A DNA stretch of 64,000 nucleotides from Isoetes taiwanensis. Its lineage: Eukaryota; Streptophyta; Lycopodiopsida; Isoetales; Isoetaceae. The stretch is from positions 7,859,013 through 7,923,012 of the forward strand of contig JAJEKV010000061.1 of NCBI GenBank assembly GCA_021234155.1, read 5' to 3'. Below are positions 49,170-61,790 of the stretch, in pieces (position 1 is the stretch's first letter; each line of letters starts with the position of its first letter). Under the pieces are notes generated by a model. That model was not told the DNA's origin, did no database searches, and saw only the letters and a list, made by a program, of their open reading frames with translations. The translations under genes were made by a program, and so were the position numbers.

Positions 49170-49329
49170 AAAATAAAGGGGAAGTCAATACAGATACTGC
49201 TGAGACAGGTTCATTTGACAATGCAGAACACCAATAAGACAAGAAGAAAAGAAGGACAGAGGTAGAAAAACTAAACGGAAACATTGAATTAGATCCAGAT
49301 TTGTATGACATAATGGATCATGGCAGTGT

Positions 49330-50090
49330 CGCATAATGAAGAACTGGATATATATCAGATTATGGCCGTACTTGATCCTGACATACCAGTCTTATGAAGA
49401 AGCTATGAATTCAAAATATGCAAAACAATGGGAAGATGCAATGATTGAAGAACTGTCAGCATTCAAAAGGACTCAGACATATGATGTGGTTAAACAACCT
49501 GAAGGGAAAAATGTTATAAGAAGCAAATGGTTGTACAAAATTAAAAGGGGCATTAATGGTGAGGAAAAGTTCAAAGCAAGATAGATTGCACAAGGATATA
49601 GTCACCTATAATGAAATTAACAAGCATAAGAATTCTCATGGCATTTGCTAATGCACACAACTTGGATATACACCACATGGATGTAAGCACAACATTTTTA
49701 AATGCTGAATTAAATGATGATGTCTATATGAGGCAAGTTCCAGGATTCGAAATTCAGGAGGAAGGAACCTTGCAGTGTATGGTCTCAAACAATCTCCCAA
49801 GATGTGGTATCAATGCATAGATAAATATCTTCTAGATCAAGGATTTATCAAATTTCTGAATGATGGGAATCTATACATACTTAGCAAGGGAAGTCAGTTC
49901 TGCATATTAGCCTTGTATGTAGATGACAATATCTTAGTACCAAGTGACATTGAAATGCTTAACAAATGTAAACAAATTCTGACCAGAAAGTTCAAAATGA
50001 CAGATCTAGGAAAAATTAAGAAATTCTTGGGCATCGAAGTGTCAAGAGATAGAGACAATAGCATATTGAAAATTACTCAATCGAGTAATA
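49330..50090 (+). pseudogene. Copia reverse transcriptase, N-terminal and palm region
   Basis: It contains SYEEAMNSKYAKQWEDAM, KNVIRSKWLYKIKRG, then after a frameshift HHMDVSTTFLNAELNDDVYM (catalytic Asp), MYGLKQSPKMWYQ and LYVDD (49913-49927; the YVDD catalytic pair), followed by DLGKIKKFLGIEVSRD. These match Ty1/copia RVT_2. The frame stops at the 11-kb DNA transposon and resumes at 61136 as NIEGMLKRFNMHDCN. Confidence 0.9.
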
Positions 50091-50362
50091 AAGCAGAGTT
50101 TCATTAAAGTTGGAAATTTCGTGATTCCATTTTCGCTCGAAATGAAATTGTTCGTTGTTTTTTCACACATTCAGCAATCAAATCTGTGCTATTTACTTAA
50201 AAATGCACAAGGATTAGCCCGAAAACCGCTCTATTTCACACGAAATGGGGCGGAAATCGACGGTCAAAACAACCTGGTTGCGCCATTTGAATAAAAATTG
50301 TGGAAAAAAATCAATAAAGTCGCTGCATTTGAAGTGAATCATAAGGACAATACACGGGAAAA

Positions 50363-50436
50363 AGCAAACAAATAGCGCGGCCGCGCAGTCTGTTGCAATA
50401 TATTCATATTGCAAATGGCGCTGCTGCGCTATTTGC
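50363..50436. repeat. AAATGGCGC palindrome pair downstream of the methylase-like gene
   Basis: CAAATAGCGCGGCCGCGCAG near 50368 and CAAATGGCGCTGCTGCGCTATTTG-type palindrome at 50412-50435. They belong to the same family as those in 52.2, 53.9-54.5 and 55.7 kb. Confidence 0.88.
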
Positions 50437-50799
50437 TTTACAAGTAAGATATACAAAAGGGGCAAATACATTAAGATCGTATGTGTCATCAGTATTCAAA
50501 AGATTAATCAGTACAGTAATCATCAATACCACAGAGGTAAATCTTATATACAAGTATGATATGCAAATCAGTTTTCAATATTCATCACCAAAAACATTAT
50601 CATCTACTTTATCAATATCATCCGGGTTAATCTTACTTCGGTCAATCTGCGTTTCGGGATCTTGTACCACTTTTTCCCCGGATCCTGTGGCCTCTCCTGC
50701 ACCAGCCTGTGACCCATCTCCTCCACCACCATGTGATGTCTCTTCTCCACCACCATGTGATGTCTCTCCCGCTTAGAGGTGTCCGGTGCCAAAACCTTA

Positions 50800-51470
50800 C
50801 GAGTCCATGGTCTTTGGATCAAGCAAGGGATTAATGACGTTGTCAATTCTTCCAAGAATCCCTAGCATACATTGGATCTTTTTTCCATCATGCTCATAGG
50901 CCACACTACTCCTTTTTAACTGCAATGATGCCCTAGCAAAAGCCCCACCAGAAAAAAAGTCCAGAACAAAGTTACCTGGAGGGCAGAGCTTATCGACATG
51001 GTATGCTGTTGTAGCAGGACCAACCTGCTTGTGAACCAAGTATTCCCCTTCCATACCTTGCCAACTGTATTTGAACATGTCCCTCGGGGCTTGGTAGCCG
51101 ATTCTACGGCTCGGCACCTGCGCATCTTTATGGGTCTTAGGAACTTGGTGCTTTCGGGGATGTTCACCATAAAACACGAGATCCGGTGTTCATCAGGCTG
51201 TGCTTGGGCTGAGATCCTGGTGGCTAGAACCACAGCTGTTGGCTCTTTTATGCCACCACCTGGTGCCCACCCACTTTCCTCTTCGTACATGCCTAAGTAA
51301 ACTCTAGATCTGGATTCTAGTCTCTCCAGGGCAGTGCAGAAGAGACTCGTATGTTCCGGCTTAGCAAAACATATTACCCAGTATGTCTCAACGTCTGTCA
51401 TCTTAGAAGCGGCATCAAAGAATTTGGCGAGTGGCGGGATCCCAAATCGAGTAATTTGCTCCTAGCATCC
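50800..51470 (-). other. DNA methyltransferase-like domain segment
   Basis: Starting from a probable acceptor (ggatgctag) at about 51462, the frame gives IPPLAKFFDAASKMTDVETY, WVICFAKPEHTSLFCTALER, then EPTAVVLATRIS, IPESTKFLRPIKMRR, a frameshift near 51085, and PPGNFVLDFFSGGAFARA with SVAYEHDGKK. The spacing and order (catalytic half, variable half, then FxGxG-like SAM-binding loop) follow beta-class amino-MTases. Confidence 0.6.
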
Positions 51471-52192
51471 AAGCAGATCATCTTTGGCAAAAAGACGATC
51501 CGATCTGGACAATCCCATCACTAGAAACGCACTCCACAAAAAATCTTTTGAACTCGCTGCCGGCCTCAGCGGCTTTAGAATCTTACGGATGGATCTGGGC
51601 CTAATGAGAAGGGCACATTACCATGGACGCCCTCTTTTCAATTATTCGTCCCGAGACCCACTTATTATGCACCACACCCCCACGATAGGAGGGTTGAGTC
51701 CGGGAATCTGTCGGACACCTTTCTCAAGTCCTCGAACTTTTCGTACTTGATTCCAAGTTCATCATGGATGTAGTTGAGAATCTCCTTCTTCATGTAGGCA
51801 AGAATCCTCAAGTTCGGGCTCTCGCCTTGAAAAATTATCACCCTTGTAATCCGATGTGACCTTAACGTAAATGTCCCCCGGGATGGCTTCCCACGGAGGA
51901 CAGATTCTGCGATCTTTCGTAATCCAGGCCTCTCATGCATCTGAGGTAGTTCTCGCTAAAATAGTCCTTATCCTTTGCCCAATTGACTGCTATTTGTTGG
52001 CCCTTGTTATCTTTCAGCTCCCCCTTTTTCCATTTATTCCACATTTGGCTTAAAGAGAGCGTAAATGTCGCCCGGCATGAAAACGAACTGTTGACATCCT
52101 TGGCATGCTTTCCCTCGAGAATCTTGTCAACCATTTCAAGGTAATGCTGAAAGGGCAAACCAAATATGTTAGAGCTTGAATGCAAAGCGATT

Positions 52193-52283
52193 GTCAAATG
52201 GCGCCGCCAAGCGCCATTTTGGCATCAAATGGCGCAATGGCCGCTTATTTGACCTCAAATGGCGAAAGTGGCGCCATTTGGCT
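52193..52283. repeat. Three AAATGGCGC palindromes in an intron of the methylase-like gene
   Basis: CAAATGGCGC...GCGCCATTTTG at 52196-52222, CAAATGGCGC...CGCTTATTTG at 52226-52251 and CAAATGGCG...GGCGCCATTTG at 52256-52280 lie head to tail between two putative exons (ending 52307 and starting 52146). Confidence 0.92.
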
Positions 52284-52489
52284 CATCTGATGGTACATAC
52301 CTTGTATTAAATTCGCTTCTTGATTGGCCTTTTCTGCTGGTGCTGGCTTGCCGCACTCCTGGTATTGCCTACGCGGGTGGTGTATCTGATCTGCGTAGGG
52401 TTCCTTAAACACTGTCCTGGCTCATTGACATCCACACTGAGCTGAAGAAGGTCCAAGTCACTCAATGCTCCAGAAAGAACTCTGCACAT

Positions 52490-52790
52490 TCTATAAGTGT
52501 AAATCTTCATGAGTTCTATTTCGCATCTTAAATCCCCAACCGACACCACGTACATGCCGGGAGGAGCGAGTAAATGGTTGCCATTGATAATGTAGAACCT
52601 CATACCAGCCAGGTCTGATTCTTGCGACCAAGGTACTAACCGCCCAGATCGGATCAAAGGGCACCACATCTGCCGGCGTGAAGACTGGATGGGGATCTTC
52701 AGCAAATGACTTGCACAGTTTCCTAACATGTTCAAGATTTACAACTCGTGCTGTCATGTTAGGAGGTGCCTCTTCCATATCCCAGATGGA
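52490..52790 (-). other. ParB/sulfiredoxin-like domain segment
   Basis: The segment reads MTARVVNLEHVRKLCKSFAE, FTPADVVPFDP, then in the next frame GMRFYIINGNHLLAPPG. ParB-type domains end in a strand with (Y/I)xxxxGNHRxxA; here Arg after GNH is replaced by Leu. In bacteria and phages this domain is often fused ahead of a DNA methylase, matching the order here. Confidence 0.55.
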
Positions 52791-53889
52791 TATTTTTCTT
52801 ACATATGTCACACCTAGAGGAAACATGTGACCGTGCTGCTGTATTTTTTTTAGAGTTTCTTCTGCCAACTCCTCCTCGGTATCACGGTCCATCTTCAACT
52901 CCGAGGGCACCTCCAGACTTTCCATTTTCCTCTGCTTTCTGACCCTCATCTCCTTCTTTGTTTCCCTCCTCCTTTTATGCGGAATGCTTTCAGCCGTCGA
53001 TCCAGCGCCTTTACCTCTCAAATGTGGAGAGGATTTAGTATCACTAATGGTTCTCTCGAATCCTCGCTTTATCCAGGGGACTTGATAGGAGAACCGATCC
53101 CGATAGGAGGAGACTTGGGAGTGACTTGGGAGGAGACACCGGGATTTTCTCGCCGTCTTTCTTTTGATTCTCTTCCTCATGCTCCGCCCCTTCCATTTGG
53201 ACTTCCTTTGGTTTGCCTTTTTCTTCCCTTGGCTTGGCTTGCCTAAGGTTTGGCTTGGCTTGCCTTGGCTTTTTCCTTGAAATCTCCTGTCGAAGCCAAG
53301 TGCTGTCCATTAGAGCAGGCATATTACAAGAGGTCTTGGCTCTGACAATATGTGACACTGAGTTCTTTGATCCGTCCATAGCTGAACGGAGAATGCCAAA
53401 TCCTCTAAGTAGCTCGACCGTGCCATTAATAGCATTTTGCCTCTTTGCTTTTCATTATGAAGGCAACGGCCGACCTTTTCTTTTGGCAGAGACTGTCTGG
53501 TCCTTGATGATGGATTCCATCATATGTGGATCGTAAAACTGCCAGTCCATGCAGTACAGATCAATGCTGCAATTCACGGGATCCTCCACTGTGCAACCAA
53601 GGAAGTCTAATCTTCCTGCTTTTTACCTCCGCATGTTGACAATGATGCCAAGCCGCATCCTGGCGTCTTGTTCACCACTTTCGACTTTGTGAGGAGGCAA
53701 ATTTCTCTCCTCTTGTCCCCTTTGTGGGGTCGACCCCCTTCCTCCAAGGGAATTGCCCCGACAATTTCCATGCACCATGGCCTTCCAGCCATGACCCGCG
53801 GTCTTCTCCGTCACAGCGTTTTGGGCCTTGGACAACGGCGCACAAGAAAACAACAAATCAACATTCAAATCATGAAACCCAAACCCAAC

Positions 53890-54510
53890 CCACTCGCCAT
53901 TTGCATGGAAATGGCGCCATGCTGCGCCATTTGCCGGTCGAGAAATGGCGCTAGGCGCGCCATCCATGCAAATGGCGGCAGCTGCGCCATTTCTCGGCAA
54001 ATGGCGCGGGTAAATCTATTTTCGATACAAATAGGATAAATTGGCCATTTCCATGCAAATGGCGTCGCTGCGCCATTTCTCGACCGGGCGGTCGGGAATC
54101 TACGGCCAGCCAACAATCCGCAGTGTACCTCCTATTCCGCGCGTCACGAAGTCGAGGCATTCTCGGCCAGCGAAGTCGATAATAAGGCACGTACTTTCTA
54201 GATTGTTGGCAAGTCGAGGGAGAGGCGACTAGCCGATTGGAGAAATGGCACATTGGCGCCATTTGCATGGAAAATGGCAAAGTGGCTCATTTACATTACA
54301 CTACATCTGATCTAAACAAACTACAAAAGTAACACATCCCAAAAAAATGGCGCGTCCGTGATATTTCTTTCAGACGGAACCACAAAAACTCACTATCCTA
54401 GACACCTGGCTACATGAAACGGCGCGGTCGCGCTATTTCTTTCTCGGGAAAAAACGTAAAACTCACTATCCTAGACACTGGCTACATGAAGCAAGCCATG
54501 GTCGCGGTAT
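53890..54510. repeat. Cluster of AAATGGCGC palindromes upstream of the methylase-like gene
   Basis: At least six copies or half-copies are present (for example gaaatggcgccatgctgcgc near 53908, caaatggcggcagctgcgcc near 53970, caaatggcgtcgctgcgcca near 54055, aaaatggcgcgtccgtgata near 54344, gaaacggcgcggtcgcgcta near 54418). They decay progressively away from the gene. Confidence 0.88.
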
Positions 54511-55411
54511 TTCAATACCCATGACGAAAAACAGGTTAAAAACAATCGAACTAACTCAACCCGACGCCATCAGATATGTAATCGCACAGGGGACCGTAGA
54601 AATTCTACTCCACCTTTTTTCCTCGAGCTCCCGGATCAACAGGCGCTACTCGAAGGCGCTAGAGAGAGAAACACGAAGGCGCTAGAGAGAGAAAGCTAAG
54701 GCGCTAGAGAGAGAAGGCGTATATACTGGCCATTGGGCGCTGGGCGAAGGCGCTTTATATCGGCGGATGAAATGAAATGAAAGAAATGAAATGAGAGAAA
54801 ATAAACCCGGGCCAAATTAATGGCGCCGACAGATTTGGCCCACAGTCCGTCCCCTCGCCAGCCCCTTCCGGTCCCCGGTCACTTGAATTTTAAATTTTGA
54901 ATTTGAATTTCCGCCCGTCCGCCAATTGAATTCTAAAATTTGAATTCCACTGCTTCGCCACTAGAATTTTAAAATTTGAATTCCCGCCACTTTTCAAGAT
55001 ATATTGTGCCACCCCTCGCCTCAAAGCCGCTTATAAAATCTGCGGGTACAGATATGGTAAACGAAGGCGCTTTCGTCCTCAGATTAGCGGGTTGCATTTT
55101 ACGCTCCCGTCCCTCGCTTCAACATCCGAGGTACTTTGTGCCTTAGAGGACTTGGCGCCAAGTCGGCGTCTATTCCGCCTTAGGCATTGGTTGTGAAGCG
55201 CTTCGAGGGCGCTACCAGCGGTTGTAGGCGCTTTAGTTGGTTGCGTGAAGCCGGTTGGTTAGCGCGCTTCTTCATTTCATACGGCTTCTTCATTTCATAG
55301 CCCGCGCTTCACTTGGTTGCGCTTCTTCATTTCATAGCGGTAGCTTCTTCATTTCATAGCGCTTCCTCTATTTTGAAGGCCTACTTGATTCAAGGCTCTT
55401 CCCTTCTTTCA
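54010..55411. promoter_or_regulatory. Shared upstream region between divergent transposon genes
   Basis: About 1.4 kb separates the leftward methylase-like gene from the rightward DUF7869-type gene. It includes repeated aggcgctagagagagaa at 54645-54718, repeated words around gaattttaaaatttgaattc at 54885-54985, and a run of gcttcttcatttcata repeats at 55265-55365 just before the start of the rightward gene. A bidirectional promoter is inferred from position only. Confidence 0.5.
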
Positions 55412-58400
55412 ATGGCGCGATTCTCGATCTACAATGATCCCAAGGTTAGTGATTACTGTTTTTTAGTTTAAGCGTGCAATTTCTCCTATAAGTGCGAATA
55501 ATGTTTCTACCACAGAGTGTCAGAGTAAACTGTAACAATCCGGGAAATAATCTGAGTAGTGTTGTAATAACCGCAAAGATGTCTGTAACAATCGTAATAA
55601 TCTTGTAGTCCGTAGTAATCTCTACTAATGTGTATCTGTAATCTTGATGTCTGTTGTATCCCGTGAAGTTATATGTAGTAAATCGTAGTAACTGCATCGT
55701 GTAACTGGCTGTCCTAAGTTTTCTGCTTTGTTCCTAAAGCCAAATGGCGCTGGTGCGCCATTAAATCAAATAGCGCAGCCGCGCCATTTGTCTCCAAATA
55801 AGCAGCCGTATTTGTTTACTCAAATGGCGCGGCTGCGCTATTTTGTGGCAAATGGCGCGGCTGTGCTATTTGAACAAATGGCGCATCCACGCCATTTGCC
55901 CGCTTTTTTATGAATATTTTATGATCATTTCCGCGGGGTTTCTAACAATGTGTGTGTCATTGCATGCTTGCGGGGAAAGGACCTTCGCAGAACTTCCTAC
56001 GTGGGGACGTGGTTGTTGCTAGGGGGCATGAACTGCATAGAGGGCACCTACATGGAAAGAGCATTGACTACTTTAAGAACGTCGTCGTGGAGGTTACTGA
56101 AGCCATAATTCCATCCCATGTGCTTCCCATTCCATGTGCAGGTGCGGATAACGTTGCTGAAGCCGTAGGCACATTTATCGAATGGCCTAGACGTGACGTG
56201 AGAATCTGTCCAGATGCTTCACCTGTATCATCATCTGAGACGAAACCCCCAACCTGCCTAGTAGTTCCTCTACATCGTCATCACCCAGTTCTCCTTCATC
56301 TCAGCCAATGAGCAACACGGAGAACTTGGTGAACTTATGCAGTGACAATGTTGTTGTTGGCAGAGGTCATTGGCTGAATAGAAGTAGCATCCATGGGAAG
56401 GATGTGGATGCACAGAACGTGGTTGTGCAAGTTACCGAGGCTGTGGTGCCAACTCAGGTGCTTCCGATTGCATGTGCGGGTGCAGATAATATTGCAGAGG
56501 CTGTGGGCACATTCATCGAATGGCCTCGAAGCGATATACGTTTTCATGGCATTGATGCAGCCCATGATGAGACACCAAGATCAGACATGGGGACACCTAC
56601 CTCATACAACTCATACATAGAATCTGTGGAGGCGAGATCGATGCGAGATGAAGAGATTGATCCATCAATGGATTTAGCTACTTTCGGTTTTCTTTCGAGA
56701 ATACCATCGATGATGATGAGCCACCACCTAGTTACTCAAGAACGAGAACTCTTGGAAATGCAGTGCCATATTCTCCATTCTTGTACTAGAACTAAACATG
56801 CGTAAGCTATAATTCTATTCAGTGATCCTCAGGATGCTGTTGATGATGAATTCTTAGGAGACACAAAGGTTGGCCTTTGTGTTGGAAAGGTGCTTCCAGA
56901 ACTAATGAAAGAGGATCTGAGATGTCATGCTTGTGCAGAAAGGCCAAGTGAGAATGCACTTGTTCGGTGGGAAAATAGCGATGTGATGCTGCTGGATGGA
57001 AGGACTGTCTCACAACATCTGCAAGCTCGAGAAGCTAAAGAAAATGAGGATATAGAGCTTGAATCATTTGAGGACAACATTCAGGCTCAATTCAAACGAA
57101 AGAAGAAGTATACTTACACACATAGGATTCCAAGAGAGCCCAAGGGAAAAAGCAAAGAGGAAAGGCTATGCTCTACGACTTCAATCAATAAGTTCATGAA
57201 GTCAAGCTGCTGCAAAAATACTTGCAACAAGAAACTTACCAAGCATCAAGTACGTGAATTAAGAAAAGAATTTTTATCCCAACCATACAATGCAAGGGTT
57301 ACGTTTTTTTTTTTTGGCGTCCGAGTGTGACTTACAATGGAGAAGGAGAGGACAGGATAGTGCTCAAGGGGATAGAATTGCAATGCATTTTGGGTGGCGA
57401 TGGCTTTAGGTATCGGTCGACCAACATTTTACAATTGGAGAAACAGATTTGAAGCAGGTGCAAAGGTAGCTGAACATGGTAATACTGGCTCTAAGAAGCC
57501 TAGATCCACTACACTGGCCACCGAATGTGTGCTAGACAGATTCATTCAGGAGAATGCTGAAAGTATTCCCCATAGGAGCAAAAGAGGTAGAGATGATGTA
57601 AGAGAAAACGTCACATAAGCTTCCTTCCATTCTTAATAAGAAGCTTATACATAAAGAAGTTGGTGCAAATCGTTGAAGAGCTTACGGGGAACAATCTGTA
57701 GCCTTGAACTCTTTTTATAGTATATGGAAAAGGGAATTTCCGGATGTTAGCATTGCAAAAATACAGACCTTCTCTAAATGCAACATCTGCGTGGTAATCA
57801 AGCAAAAGCTGGAAAAAACAAAAGATACAAGAGAGAGACGAAATCTTGCAATTCAACGTCGGGCTCATATGTTAGAGCAACGTTCTTGCAGAAGTCAATA
57901 TTGGCATTGTGGAGCATTGTCACAGCGGTCTCCAGAAAATCATCTATGTATAATACATGATAAGATGGATCAGGTTAAGACTTTAGTGCCTAGAAGTCAT
58001 CATCTAGCAAAATCTGTATGGAGAGGTGATCGCTTGAAGAGCAGTTTGACAGGAGCTCTGACTCATGGGCATGGTGGTCGTGCCTATGGTCATTTCTCAC
58101 TTGATTTATGGAAAGATGATTCAAACTTCCACATTGGTTCACTTTCTAGGATATTGCATAACTTGGAATTGGTACAAGAGGACAAGATAGGTGACTTATG
58201 TGGAAGTAAGCCTGCAGATTGCAAATGGATGCAAGCAGTCAAGGATACCAATCCTTTGAAGAACAAACTTGCTTCTATGGCAGAAGTATTGCCAAATGCT
58301 TCAACTACAACGAATCCTGAGGTGTTCAACCCTCTCCCCCGAAATCTCTATTTGCAACTTGATAATGCATCAGGGCAAAACAAAAATTTATTTGACTTGG

Positions 58401-59508
58401 CTTAAGGTCTTTGATGAGATCCAAGTGGGCTTTATGATGGTCGGCCACACCCATGATGATATTGATGCTTTATTTGGAAATTTTTCAACCTTGATGAGTT
58501 CATCTGATGCTTTGACACTACCGAGCTACTTTACTTGTTCAAGCAAGTGCAATGCGAAATCTCCAATTCCATACTTTATTGATGAAGTTCCAAATTGGAA
58601 GGCTTTTTGTGAAGGGATTCATCCCGATAAGGGCCAACGCTGGTTGGGCATCTTGAACCATTGCTCTTCAAATTTAAGATGGCGGAGATTGGCCACGTTA
58701 TGCAATACAAAATGCGCCCCTACACATAAAGAGTGGCTTCCAGCAGATTCTCCGGGAGTTAGAATGTGGAAAGAGGATGAACATGGTCAGCCAATGATAC
58801 CAAGTGGTGTGCCACAAAATATTCCTCCTAGACCAACATTGAAAGATCTTCCGGGGGTTGAAGGATAGCATCAACAAATACATCTCCCTATGGAAGGACA
58901 TATGTAAGAATCAAGAAAGTAGCTTGTTTGCAAGGCAATACACGGCAAGTGTTGAGTATTGGAGCCGACTTCTTATCTCTTTGGAGGATGTTGCTCCGGG
59001 GCGCCCTCAAAATGATGCATTTTGGCCACAAACAAGACAAGCTCCTCTAGAACAAAAAAAGATTTGTTCCAGAGGTCGACGATATCTGCCTTGGTCACAC
59101 GACCTTTACCATCTTATTGTGGCCCGCCGATGGCCGCGCCCCGGTGTTGCCTCTTGAAGAGTTTGATCCTCACGCATACATGTGACAAAGGGTATGTTTG
59201 TTCTAGTCGGAGACTGGAGATGATAACACCGCCACTTGGTTAGGATATCAGAGGAGAATGTTTGTTCTTGATCCGGAATCTACATATTTTGGCCATATTT
59301 TTATATCGTGGTGGAAGCCTCTTTTGGAGGGGACTACAAAGACCGCTTGACTAAGCGTTGGCGGCCTAATCCTTCCGATCCTTCAAGGTATGAAAATTTA
59401 GATGCTATTCATTATGCCTGGGATGCCAATGGCAAGAGGCCGAAAACAGTTCAAATTCCGAAATATATTGTAGACATGTGGAAAGACATAGCACATTGTT
59501 CATCTTAA
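55412..59508 (+). pseudogene. DUF7869-type DDE-like transposase candidate, decayed
   Basis: Exon 1 (55412-55444) encodes MARFSIYNDPK with donor gttagt. Exon 2 probably starts at 55991 after ttcgcag. Two tandem blocks follow, each ending VAEAVGTFIEWP or IAEAVGTFIEWP (about 55991-56200 and 56341-56540), similar to a domain seen in plant transposon proteins. A Cys-rich KSSCCKNTCNKK (57201-57236) precedes an LGIGRPTFYNWRNRF helix-turn-helix-like segment (about 57400). Candidate catalytic acids are in HDKMDQVKTLVPR (57956), LQLDNASGQNKN (58350) and VGHTHDDIDALFG (58440), the hallmark series of the family I know as DUF7869. The C-terminus runs to WKDIAHCSS-stop. Frameshifts near 56305, 56810, 57320, 57620, 58405, 58870 and 59160 show decay. 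Transposition of the 11-kb element is the inferred role. Confidence 0.7.
55740..55900. repeat. Five AAATGGCGC palindromes in intron 1 of the transposase candidate
   Basis: Consecutive copies read aaatggcgctggtgcgccat, caaatagcgcagccgcgcca, caaatggcggg-like variants and caaatggcgcggctgcgcta, each a 20-24-bp near-palindrome, within 160 bp of intron DNA. Confidence 0.92.
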
Positions 59509-59639
59509 TACATGAGATCTTGTAATACATATCTTTCATCTTAATACATAAGATCTTGTACATTACTGTATTTGTGATCATATATAACTGCTTACATCTT
59601 TAATATATAAATGCATACATGATTTATAGATAAGATGGT

Positions 59640-60480
59640 CAGAAGTGCTTACATGTTGAACAGGTGATTCATTCATCTTCAGGATCTGTAGTAGTGATCC
59701 CTGATATCAGGAAGCCAAATCAGATGGATCATAACACGAATTGACGCAGGGCAATGAATCTCAGCGCCCAAAGCTTTTCTTTGCAGGTAGGGATCAAGAA
59801 GAAGATGCCTGTCTAGGCAACCAACAAGATCAGAGAGGCTCATTGAGCACTTGATCGCCTCGATGTGGTGAATAGAAGAAGGTAAATAATCCATGGGAGA
59901 TGAATGACCTCTAGCCCCGAATGGAGCTGTTTTTATAGTGAAGTAAAATTATTCATGTGAATTATTGGGGTGGATCAGAGCGCCATCATTGAGCGTATAC
60001 AAGTATCATGTACCGCATGTGTATGATTCTATCATGTACTCAGATTCTATACATCACCTAATATTCACTATGCTTATATTATATATATCCAATGTGATAC
60101 ACAAATCATAAGTGCTTATATTATTATATCCTTAACAGTATACTGATCATCACCGATTCACTCATCATCAACACTTAATGAGGTAATGGCATTCAGCTCA
60201 TAGATCTCCGATCGGGAAGCCAATATAGGTGGATCACAACACTAGTGAGCTTTCCCGCAAGCACCGCAGGACCATCCGCTTTGGATTGCAGCCATGGATC
60301 CATCTTCACACCCTTTATTGCGCAATCATACCCGGATCATTGTAGCTCATGTAGCACTTGATGGTTTGGATGTTCTCCGGACGATCAGGCAAGGAAGCCA
60401 TGGGAGATGAATGACCTCTACCACCGAATGGAGCTGCTTTTATAGTGAAGTAAAATTATTGATGTGAATTATTGGTGTTC
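59640..60480. repeat. Diverged direct duplication (two units of about 270 bp)
   Basis: 59660-59970 and 60190-60470 share gggagatgaatgacctcta, cgaatggagctg-ttttatag and gtgaagtaaaattatt-atgtgaattattgg. Each unit covers one copy of the small minus-strand ORF and its upstream region. Confidence 0.85.
59679..59894 (-). other. Small ORF repeated at 60.2-60.4 kb
   Basis: A 71-codon minus-strand frame (starting MDYLPSSIHHIEAIKCSMSL) with a promoter-proximal ctataaaaacagctcc-like box upstream on the same strand. A diverged copy with stops lies at about 60195-60405 (MASLPDRPENIQTIKCYMSY), with matching 5' flanks (catgggagatgaatgacctc). The repeated organisation suggests a duplicated small gene or repeat. 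No family is recognised. Confidence 0.4.
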
Positions 60481-60899
60481 ATTGCCATTATACGAGTACC
60501 ATACATGTATATGATCCAATAATCTCTATGTATATACTATCAATAATTTTGGTGAGTATATACCATCAATAATTTTGGTGGGTATAAATATACATCAAAT
60601 TGCCGAGTGCAGCAACATTGGCCTCTGTCTAGCTATGACGTATTCTGGTCTTGAACGTGATTCTATCACTTGCAAGATGAATCATGAGGACTTCAAGCGG
60701 TGTCATGAAAGCGAGATATACCGCTTGAAGACTGGCTCACCACTGTTGCTCTCAATCCTCGCCATTATCCTGATCCCGTCGATGTTATCATACATCTCCT
60801 ATGGAATAGAGAGTATCAAATGTTCATGATCGAAAGGATCTCTGGAGCGCCTTCTGCTAGTTCTGATCATTCAGAGTAATAGTAGAAGAATAATAGTAC

Positions 60900-61090
60900 T
60901 TGTTATCTTATTGTAATCTGGTTGTGTTAGTATACAACAGGTATACATAACCTTTTGTAGTACACATAACCGTAATAAAAGTATTGATGTATACTAGTAT
61001 ACACATGTATACATAACCTTATGTAATACACATAACCATACTATAAGTATTGAGGTATACATAACCCTCCAAGTATACTATATAAAAATT
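60900..61090 (+). repeat. Subterminal GTATACATAACC repeats
   Basis: gtatacataacc occurs three times and the related acacataacc twice in 190 bp, next to the right TIR of the 11-kb transposon. Such repeats are typical sites for transposase binding, though that role is inferred. Confidence 0.75.
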
Positions 61091-61135
61091 ATTCCAACTT
61101 GTCTCCAGAATTCCAACTTTAATGAAACTCTGCTT

Positions 61136-61790
61136 AATATAGAAGGCATGCTTAAAAGATTTAATATGCACGATTGTAATGTTGGAAGAACACCAATTAT
61201 TCAGGGATTAAAATTGTCAAGTGACCACTGTCCTAAAACTCAGGAATAATTACTGGAAATGGAGAAGATCCCATACATGGAGTTTATTGGTTGTTTGCTA
61301 TATATTTCAAATTGTACCAGACCAGAGATAGCTTTTACAGTCAACTTGTTGAGCAGATTTAATAATAATCTAGGGAAGCAACATTGGACCATTGCAAAAC
61401 GAGTTCTAAGGTATCTAAAATATACACAGAATCATGGGTTGACATTTAGCAATAATGACTTGGTGCTCAAAGGATATGCAGATGCTGATTGGGGTCGTGA
61501 CATTGACACGAGAAGTCTACATCTGGATTTGCTTGATGCTAGGAGGACCTGTTAGTACTTGGAAAAGTAAGAAACAATCAAGTGTTCCAATGTCCACAGC
61601 TGAAGCAGAATACAACTCCGCAACACTTGCAGCAAAGGAAATTGCATGGGTCAGAAGGCTACTTAATGAGCTCAAGATTATTCAGAAGTTGCTTACAGTA
61701 CTTTATTCTGATAGTTTGAGCTGCATTGCAATTAACATGAAATCCAGTATTACACTAAAGAACCAAGCACATTGAATTACATGTTCATTT
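61136..61790 (+). pseudogene. Copia RT end and RNase H
   Basis: It has IEGMLKRFNMHDCNVG, PYMEFIGCLLYISNCTRPEI, HWTIAKRVLRYLKYTQNHGL, YADADWG at about 61475-61495 (first RNase H Asp), then GGPVSTWKSKKQSSVPMSTA with EAEY (catalytic Glu) and YSDSLSCI (Asp). Frameshifts lie near 61250, 61535 and 61770. It completes the polyprotein begun at 49330. Confidence 0.9.

Follow-up and report, generated by a model that had tools for sequence, protein, structure and literature searches.

We describe a two-gene DNA transposon from the lycophyte Isoetes taiwanensis, found within a 64,000-nucleotide stretch (hereafter, the window) of contig JAJEKV010000061.1 (positions 7,859,013 to 7,923,012 of assembly GCA_021234155.1). 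The element, at window positions 50091-61135 (11,045 bp), has perfectly matched 25-bp terminal inverted repeats (TIRs), a 4-bp target site duplication (TSD) and a DUF7869 transposase gene, opposite which lies an accessory gene. The best explanation, to which we give about an even chance, is a Sola-like, cut-and-paste-type transposon whose accessory protein is an altered ParB-like/methyltransferase fusion that may now act mainly as a DNA-binding factor. A vascular-plant transposon appears to carry a second gene that resembles bacterial machinery for DNA recognition and DNA modification, that is held by selection and has open copies, and that comes with a candidate binding site.

The boundaries of the element are exact. 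Its two TIRs are identical across 25 bp, with none expected in 100 shuffles, and AATA stands at both ends. A 148-bp query composed of both flanks and a single AATA matched C1094:2289791-2289938 over its full length at 98% identity (the top of 40 matches); because this unoccupied site matches end to end, it fixes the boundaries and the 4-bp TSD and indicates precise insertion, upholding the TIRs and AATA duplication described in a first-pass annotation that was made from the sequence alone. The flanks by themselves would also permit a TAA duplication, but this site and the ten copies described below rule it out. The insertion target is a Copia-type pol frame, and Copia-type pol pieces (window 49309-50107 and 61250-61775) flank the element, which is inserted within a retrotransposon.

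Searching the 1,658,258,908-bp assembly (1110 contigs), we found the TIR at 493 places (257 + 236) at up to 2 mismatches, and its reversed control at none. Pairing, based on 100 of these places, gave 21 facing TIR pairs spanning 10,989-33,953 bp, with none shorter among the pairs listed. Eleven pairs were near 11 kb, of which we retrieved 10; these copies, picked by their TIR spacing of about 11 kb, and the window element are the 11 copies referred to throughout. All 10 retrieved copies have a 4-bp duplication directly abutting AAGCAG...CTGCTT (TAGG, CTAT, CACA, CATA, TAAT, GAAA, CCTA, TTTA, TTTG and TTTA), and all 10 contain the transposase core and both exons of the minus-strand gene. Accessory exon 2 was also present inside both examined pairs of the 13.7-34 kb class (2 of 10 such pairs).

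A second, diverged family is represented at C1066:2339870-2349995 (L071, L070 and L072) by an element of 10,126 bp. It is flanked by a CATG duplication, and its perfect 25-bp TIR, AAGCACAATTTCATTATAATGAGAA, has 6 mismatches to the window TIR. The transposase place has 74% identity and an open frame of 1136 codons, and the divergent accessory gene, with exon 1 open across 557 codons and exon 2 split over two frames, encodes a protein 40-56% identical to that of the window family. Because this diverged family carries both genes between other TIRs, the gene pairing is older than the window family. With it included, 12 of 12 elements (window, 10 copies and family 2) have a 4-bp TSD and both gene regions. 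An open frame of 461 codons spans the right boundary of the family-2 element and continues into the flanking DNA (L070 / L072); the insertion may be within, or adjacent to, another gene or transposon.

The plus-strand gene, whose start codon is placed as in the first-pass annotation, matches the Pfam DUF7869 profile with E values of 6e-15 in the window, 1.9e-40 in copy L009L010 and 3.7e-41 in the open frame of family 2, confirming the predicted DUF7869-type transposase opposite the accessory gene. The acidic motifs noted at first reading (HDKMDQ, LDNASGQNKN and GHTHDDID) recur among the 11 copies when frames are ignored, with HDKMD in 11, LDNxSGQNKN in 9 and GHTHxxID in 11. A helix-turn-helix upstream of DUF7869 in open copies is weak and below cut-off, and the word DUF7869 was not found in the literature searched. 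The N-terminal part of the gene also contains a 121-bp direct repeat (77% identical; window 56076-56196 and 56414-56534); the segment that it duplicates, VEVTEA..GTFIEWP, contains a motif found within the open frame of family 2 as well.

The minus-strand gene consists of two large exons and a short, phase 0 GT-AG intron found in most of the 11 copies (the exon model is drawn from sequence), so that the two divergent genes originally proposed both stand. The protein model, assembled from pieces and with an inferred exon-1 start codon, has 1011 aa. At least 94 genome matches to exon 2 were found, and in many of them the frame is open over about 520 aa; both exons are open in 3 of 30 loci (L037, L039 and L042), within 4.4-kb loci that exclude the start. 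We tested selection on 11 exon-2 open reading frames (ORFs) that were selected for openness and fall into two subfamilies. Among the 18 between-subfamily pairs, nonsynonymous divergence (dN) was 0.21-0.27 and synonymous divergence (dS) was saturated in 12 and 2.5-3.2 in 6, with dN/dS (omega) of 0.07-0.09 in those 6 unsaturated pairs. Within subfamily 1, omega was 0.30-0.58 in 33 of 36 pairs, and the single subfamily-2 pair gave 0.27. Judged from these estimates, the accessory gene is kept under strong purifying selection between subfamilies.

One copy, L019L020 (C908:22784007-22796085), is a mosaic with the same TIR: its accessory gene belongs to the diverged subfamily (dS about 2 or saturated) and its transposase is of the window kind, about 6% different from the reference copy. 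Because it joins a diverged accessory gene to a window-kind transposase, its two halves have recombined, a case of module exchange between element lineages.

Both genes of the window copy are broken by frameshifts and stops, which we rejected as proof of a dead family, since other copies are open. Across window 50091-61135 and copies L009-L028 (L019L020 omitted for the accessory exons), short indels were 2.4-3.1-fold and substitutions 2.1-3.5-fold enriched at CWG sites. The published assembly (1658.30 Mb; 204 scaffolds and 909 contigs) is described as built from nanopore R9.4.1 reads (PMC8566536), and the indel excess may reflect base-calling errors at methylated CHG, deamination and decay, or both. 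Because the CWG changes may be such base-calling errors, the broken window copy tells little about the family.

The resemblance of the accessory protein to ParB lies in the segment YIINGNHSVSAAQL, which family 2 retains in the form YYIVNGNHSVLAAQL. Its GNH motif, proposed as ParB-like in the first-pass annotation, is real and conserved in other copies, and is supported as a motif alone; similarity to ParB by profile was not recovered, and a phage search with the ParB-like part gave no match. The C-terminal half, by contrast in its profile result, is weakly supported as a distant relative of beta-class amino-methyltransferases. A 14-member profile aligned with seven phage beta-class methylases over the motif X/I/II region (hhalign E value 3.2e-5, probability 72.5, score 45.3), and 20 column shuffles of this comparison scored at most 23.7. 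The LDFFSGG loop is supported by this comparison and conserved in other copies. EmiRose gp39 of a Corynebacterium phage (Pfam 6e-29) is 36% identical to the accessory protein over 64 aa (E 5e-7 as a single comparison), although it was the top match of a search at E 2 and hence a selected comparison. Further matches comprised Pfam PF01555, below cut-off only (best E 0.0017), a PHROGs methyltransferase family (0.0046-0.017) and, among PDB sequences, RsrI methylase (E 0.87-1.4).

Protein homology searches with the spliced model (E <= 1), exon 2 (E <= 10) and alignment A6 (E <= 1) returned nothing, the first and last of these scoring the best 8000 candidates by shared words; 167 pattern matches in IMG/VR included no relatives, and PADLOC gave no match to the accessory protein. 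Matches on the charged linker (NCBIfam TIGR04526 at 0.0019, and Pfam Herpes_DNAp_acc and Phage-scaffold) were judged to reflect composition and set aside, and the sole matches of exon 1 were an RNA polymerase III subunit (0.22) and MCM3 (2.6). The top PDB match of exon 2 was a synthetic pentatricopeptide repeat (PPR) protein (7.9e-8, summed over three repeats; profiles 2.8e-5 and 4.3e-4). One 40-aa stretch of exon 2 (KFEDLRKV..LLSWG; L024:3862-5295, residues 95-134) matched these repeats, none of them significantly when taken singly (best 0.34); Pfam gave no PPR match in the accessory protein.

At up to 2 mismatches, the window element contains 9 copies of a 22-bp palindrome, AAATGGCGC-N4-GCGCCATTT (as one string, AAATGGCGCNNNNGCGCCATTT), and family 2 contains 15; none occurs in 50 shuffles of each element or in the 52,955 bp of the window outside the element. 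Across the 12 elements, 31 of 43 exact inward half-site pairs have a 4-bp gap. The repeats belong to the non-coding parts of both families, and their half-sites avoid coding sequence: coding DNA takes up about 60% of the window element (by approximate exons) yet holds 1 of 19 half-sites, and ORFs take up 66% of the family-2 element yet hold 0 of 29. The simplest reading of the palindrome is a dimer-binding site, for which the accessory protein is a natural candidate.

Under the explanation that we prefer, the accessory protein would descend from a fusion of ParB-like and beta-class methyltransferase parts, would no longer have the canonical amino-methylation motif, through loss or alteration, and would now function chiefly in sequence-specific DNA binding. 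Its targets would be the palindromes, which lie subterminally, in introns and in the divergent promoter region, and such binding could provide recognition of its own element and control of the divergent promoters, as well as assembly of a transposition complex or resistance to host silencing. A more specific proposal, which falls clearly short of an even chance, is a parS-like system in a eukaryotic transposon, in which the altered ParB-methyltransferase protein, acting through cognate palindrome arrays, would form a coat on the element or bridge it, and so serve self-recognition, protection from silencing or control of transposition. On this parS-like reading we would suggest, as tentatively, that the palindrome-protein pair has been kept across two families with different TIRs and with accessory proteins that differ over about half of their length.

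Several observations weigh against the preferred explanation. The palindrome is linked to the protein by co-occurrence alone, was noticed in repeat lists before it was tested, and varies in number from 0 (L017L018) to 18 over the 11 family-1 copies at up to 2 mismatches. Pfam ParB_N (PF02195) had no genome match at E <= 1 in a search that detected 11 of 14 controls; the N-terminal half of the accessory protein has no significant alignment to phage methyltransferases (its score was equalled or exceeded in 2 and 4 of 50 shuffles); and PF01555 had no match at all in two tested subfamily-2 ORFs. The place of motif IV, considered below, was assigned by eye. Three subfamily-1 pairs gave omega values of 0.61, 0.83 and 1.20. 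Co-occurrence of the two genes is also incomplete: among the matches listed, 17 of 28 transposase places at 80% identity or more, and 3 of 38 below 80%, have an accessory exon no further than 25 kb away.

It is possible, but in our view rather doubtful, that the palindromes are a hairpin-prone repeat that spreads by duplication within elements and is unrelated to the accessory protein. The variable number of sites would fit, as would the 26-28 bp period of some arrays and the repeated spacers, with 7 distinct spacers among 18 sites in L019L020 (AGCT 9 times) and 5 among 15 in family 2. Because spacers repeat in these two elements, duplication has had a part in the spread of the palindrome. Yet the 9 window sites have 7 distinct spacers, and the partner half-site is better conserved than spacer and flanks: given one half, conservation per position of the other is 0.53-0.72 in family 1 and 0.69-0.90 in family 2, compared with 0.43-0.53 and 0.52-0.79 for the spacer and 0.28-0.55 for the flanks. 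Both families also share the 9-4-9 layout although their accessory proteins are about 40-56% identical, which likewise speaks against an unrelated repeat.

Two-gene DNA transposons are common in general, and the accessory protein could be a second transposition subunit that binds subterminal or internal sites to aid the DUF7869 transposase and has no epigenetic role. We consider this unlikely. The gene is present in every element examined in full, and sites are repeated within the element, but 1 of the 9 window palindromes lies near an end and many transposase places have no accessory exon nearby among the matches listed. These matches come from 89 scored out of 3821 candidates for the accessory exons and 66 scored out of 15692 for the transposase; of 73 transposase matches, the pairing analysis took in 65 and set 8 fragments aside. 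In favour of the preferred explanation, 19 of the 89 accessory-exon copies have a divergent transposase within 25 kb, and one further pair is otherwise arranged. At least two transposase places with no listed accessory exon, copy L015L016 and the family-2 element, do carry the gene, so some of the misses arise from the extent of the lists. That the two genes always occur together holds for 11 of 11 full-length copies and one diverged family, but incompletely among the matches listed.

Less probable still is that the accessory protein remains active as a DNA methyltransferase by means of an unusual catalytic motif and, along the lines suggested for its algal counterparts, labels the element with 6mA, 4mC or another modified base, a label that would block silencing or license the transposase. 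The relationship of the motif X/I/II region to beta-class enzymes and the purifying selection on the gene would suit this idea, as would the Ectocarpus protein predicted to make 4mC or 6mA (PMC12477816) and the retained D of the apparent motif IV (LDARQ, VDLRA). CLDARQ occupies that place in 11 of 11 open exon-2 ORFs; aligned by eye, SMICLDARQITPIWD sits opposite phage SIVTDPPYGLGFMGKKWD, and a comparable strand follows (YWVICFAKPEH / LLAFGGTRT). Family 2 has VDLRAISPMW at this place and a degenerate motif I, LDYFTCGSF. The PP-aromatic part of DPPY, however, is missing in both families, whereas DPPY is present in 7 of 7 aligned phage enzymes, and a search for [DNS]PP[YFW] in three minus frames across the gene region of the 11 copies found none, with only looser variants such as NPPH and SPPL. 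Because DPPY is absent and LDARQ or VDLRA stands in its apparent place, an active DNA amino-methyltransferase is not supported by the sequence. Of the beta-class methylase gene first proposed, the LDFFSGG loop survives, as does, weakly, the C-terminal ancestry; a working enzyme is not supported, the canonical form of motif IV being absent. Finally, a captured host or bacterial passenger gene, which domains typical of prokaryotes might suggest, is strongly disfavoured by purifying selection across subfamilies and by the presence of the gene in a second family with another TIR, and we regard it as highly improbable.

Table 1. Features of the Isoetes taiwanensis element and its insertion site, in window coordinates
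Feature	Position	Strand	Basis or detail
Target site duplication AATA, left	50087..50090	.	Sequence; matched unoccupied site
Terminal inverted repeat, left	50091..50115	+	Identity to right TIR; 493 genomic ends at <=2 mismatches
Palindrome, subterminal	50413..50434	.	AAATGGCGC-N4-GCGCCATTT
Accessory exon 2 (frameshifted in window copy), with a conserved N-terminal region followed by a methyltransferase-like C-terminus (LDFFSGG)	50575..52146	-	
Accessory intron (GTATGT..CAG), inferred from sequence of 11 copies	52147..52300	-	Palindrome half-sites 52196, 52211, 52227, 52271
Accessory exon 1 (frameshifted in window copy), with an N-terminal domain, a charged/proline linker and a ParB-like segment that contains GNH	52301..53792	-	
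Palindromes 54057, 54243 and 54417, between divergent genes	54057..54438	.	
Transposase gene, several exons	55412..59508	+	DUF7869 match ~58025-58607; HDKMDQ just before match
Cluster of 5 palindromes (55742, 55768, 55822, 55850, 55876) in 5' part of transposase gene, probably intron	55742..55897	.	
Terminal inverted repeat, right	61111..61135	-	Identity to left TIR
Target site duplication AATA, right	61136..61139	.	Sequence; matched unoccupied site

Bacterial ParB-parS combines a protein that has a GNH segment with clustered palindromic sites. The Isoetes element would be alike, as a hypothesis, in its GNH-segment protein and clustered palindromes; it differs in that its host genome has no Pfam ParB_N match and no partition function is suggested, and its palindrome sequence is presumably unrelated to parS. 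With phage beta-class N6/N4 DNA methyltransferases, the accessory protein shares the motif X/I/II segment, as in EmiRose gp39, and it differs from them in the lack of DPPY in the Isoetes families and in an N-terminal half that does not align significantly.

The element fits a Sola-like type, a name given by its features and by the algal precedent discussed below. The Sola superfamily reportedly goes back to an original paper of 2009. Sola elements are described as having DDD transposases and 4-bp TSDs, and as present in a moss and uncommon in flowering plants (PMC10741241); in these respects the Isoetes element is similar, with its 4-bp TSD, TIRs, acidic motifs fitting a DDD transposase and presence in a non-flowering plant. 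Mobile elements with DNA-modification-type genes are also described in the form of retrotransposons with cytosine methyltransferases (PMC5890265) and fungal DNA transposons with TET/JBP genes (PMC12730594), which differ from the Isoetes element in enzyme class and element type.

The first-pass annotation knew of no element with this combination of genes, a view that does not hold: Sola1-1_Ec32 of the brown alga Ectocarpus, published in 2025, is described as a large DNA transposon of 21.5 kb in which a gene opposite the Sola1 transposase encodes a 1104-aa ParB-like and DNA methyltransferase protein (PMC12477816). The same paper cites similar ParB-methylase transposon proteins from green and red algae (its refs 50 and 51), with which the Isoetes protein would share the reported domain combination. 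The accessory gene follows the algal pattern (opposite strand, about 1100 aa) in its divergent order and its pieced model of 1011 aa. Compared by description, the Isoetes and Ectocarpus elements are both large DNA transposons with an accessory gene on the strand opposite the transposase, and the Isoetes element differs in its size (11 kb), its vascular-plant host, the DPPY motif not found and its palindrome array. Because the Ectocarpus pair is published, the Isoetes element is best viewed as a land-plant version of a known pairing, and no land-plant case was named in the literature searched at the level of titles and abstract openings. What this analysis adds is the lycophyte families, a test of selection, the absence of DPPY and an array of palindromes, which turn a one-sentence proposal from the algal work, that such elements bind and modify their own DNA, into two testable questions: whether the protein binds the palindrome, and whether any methylation activity is retained.

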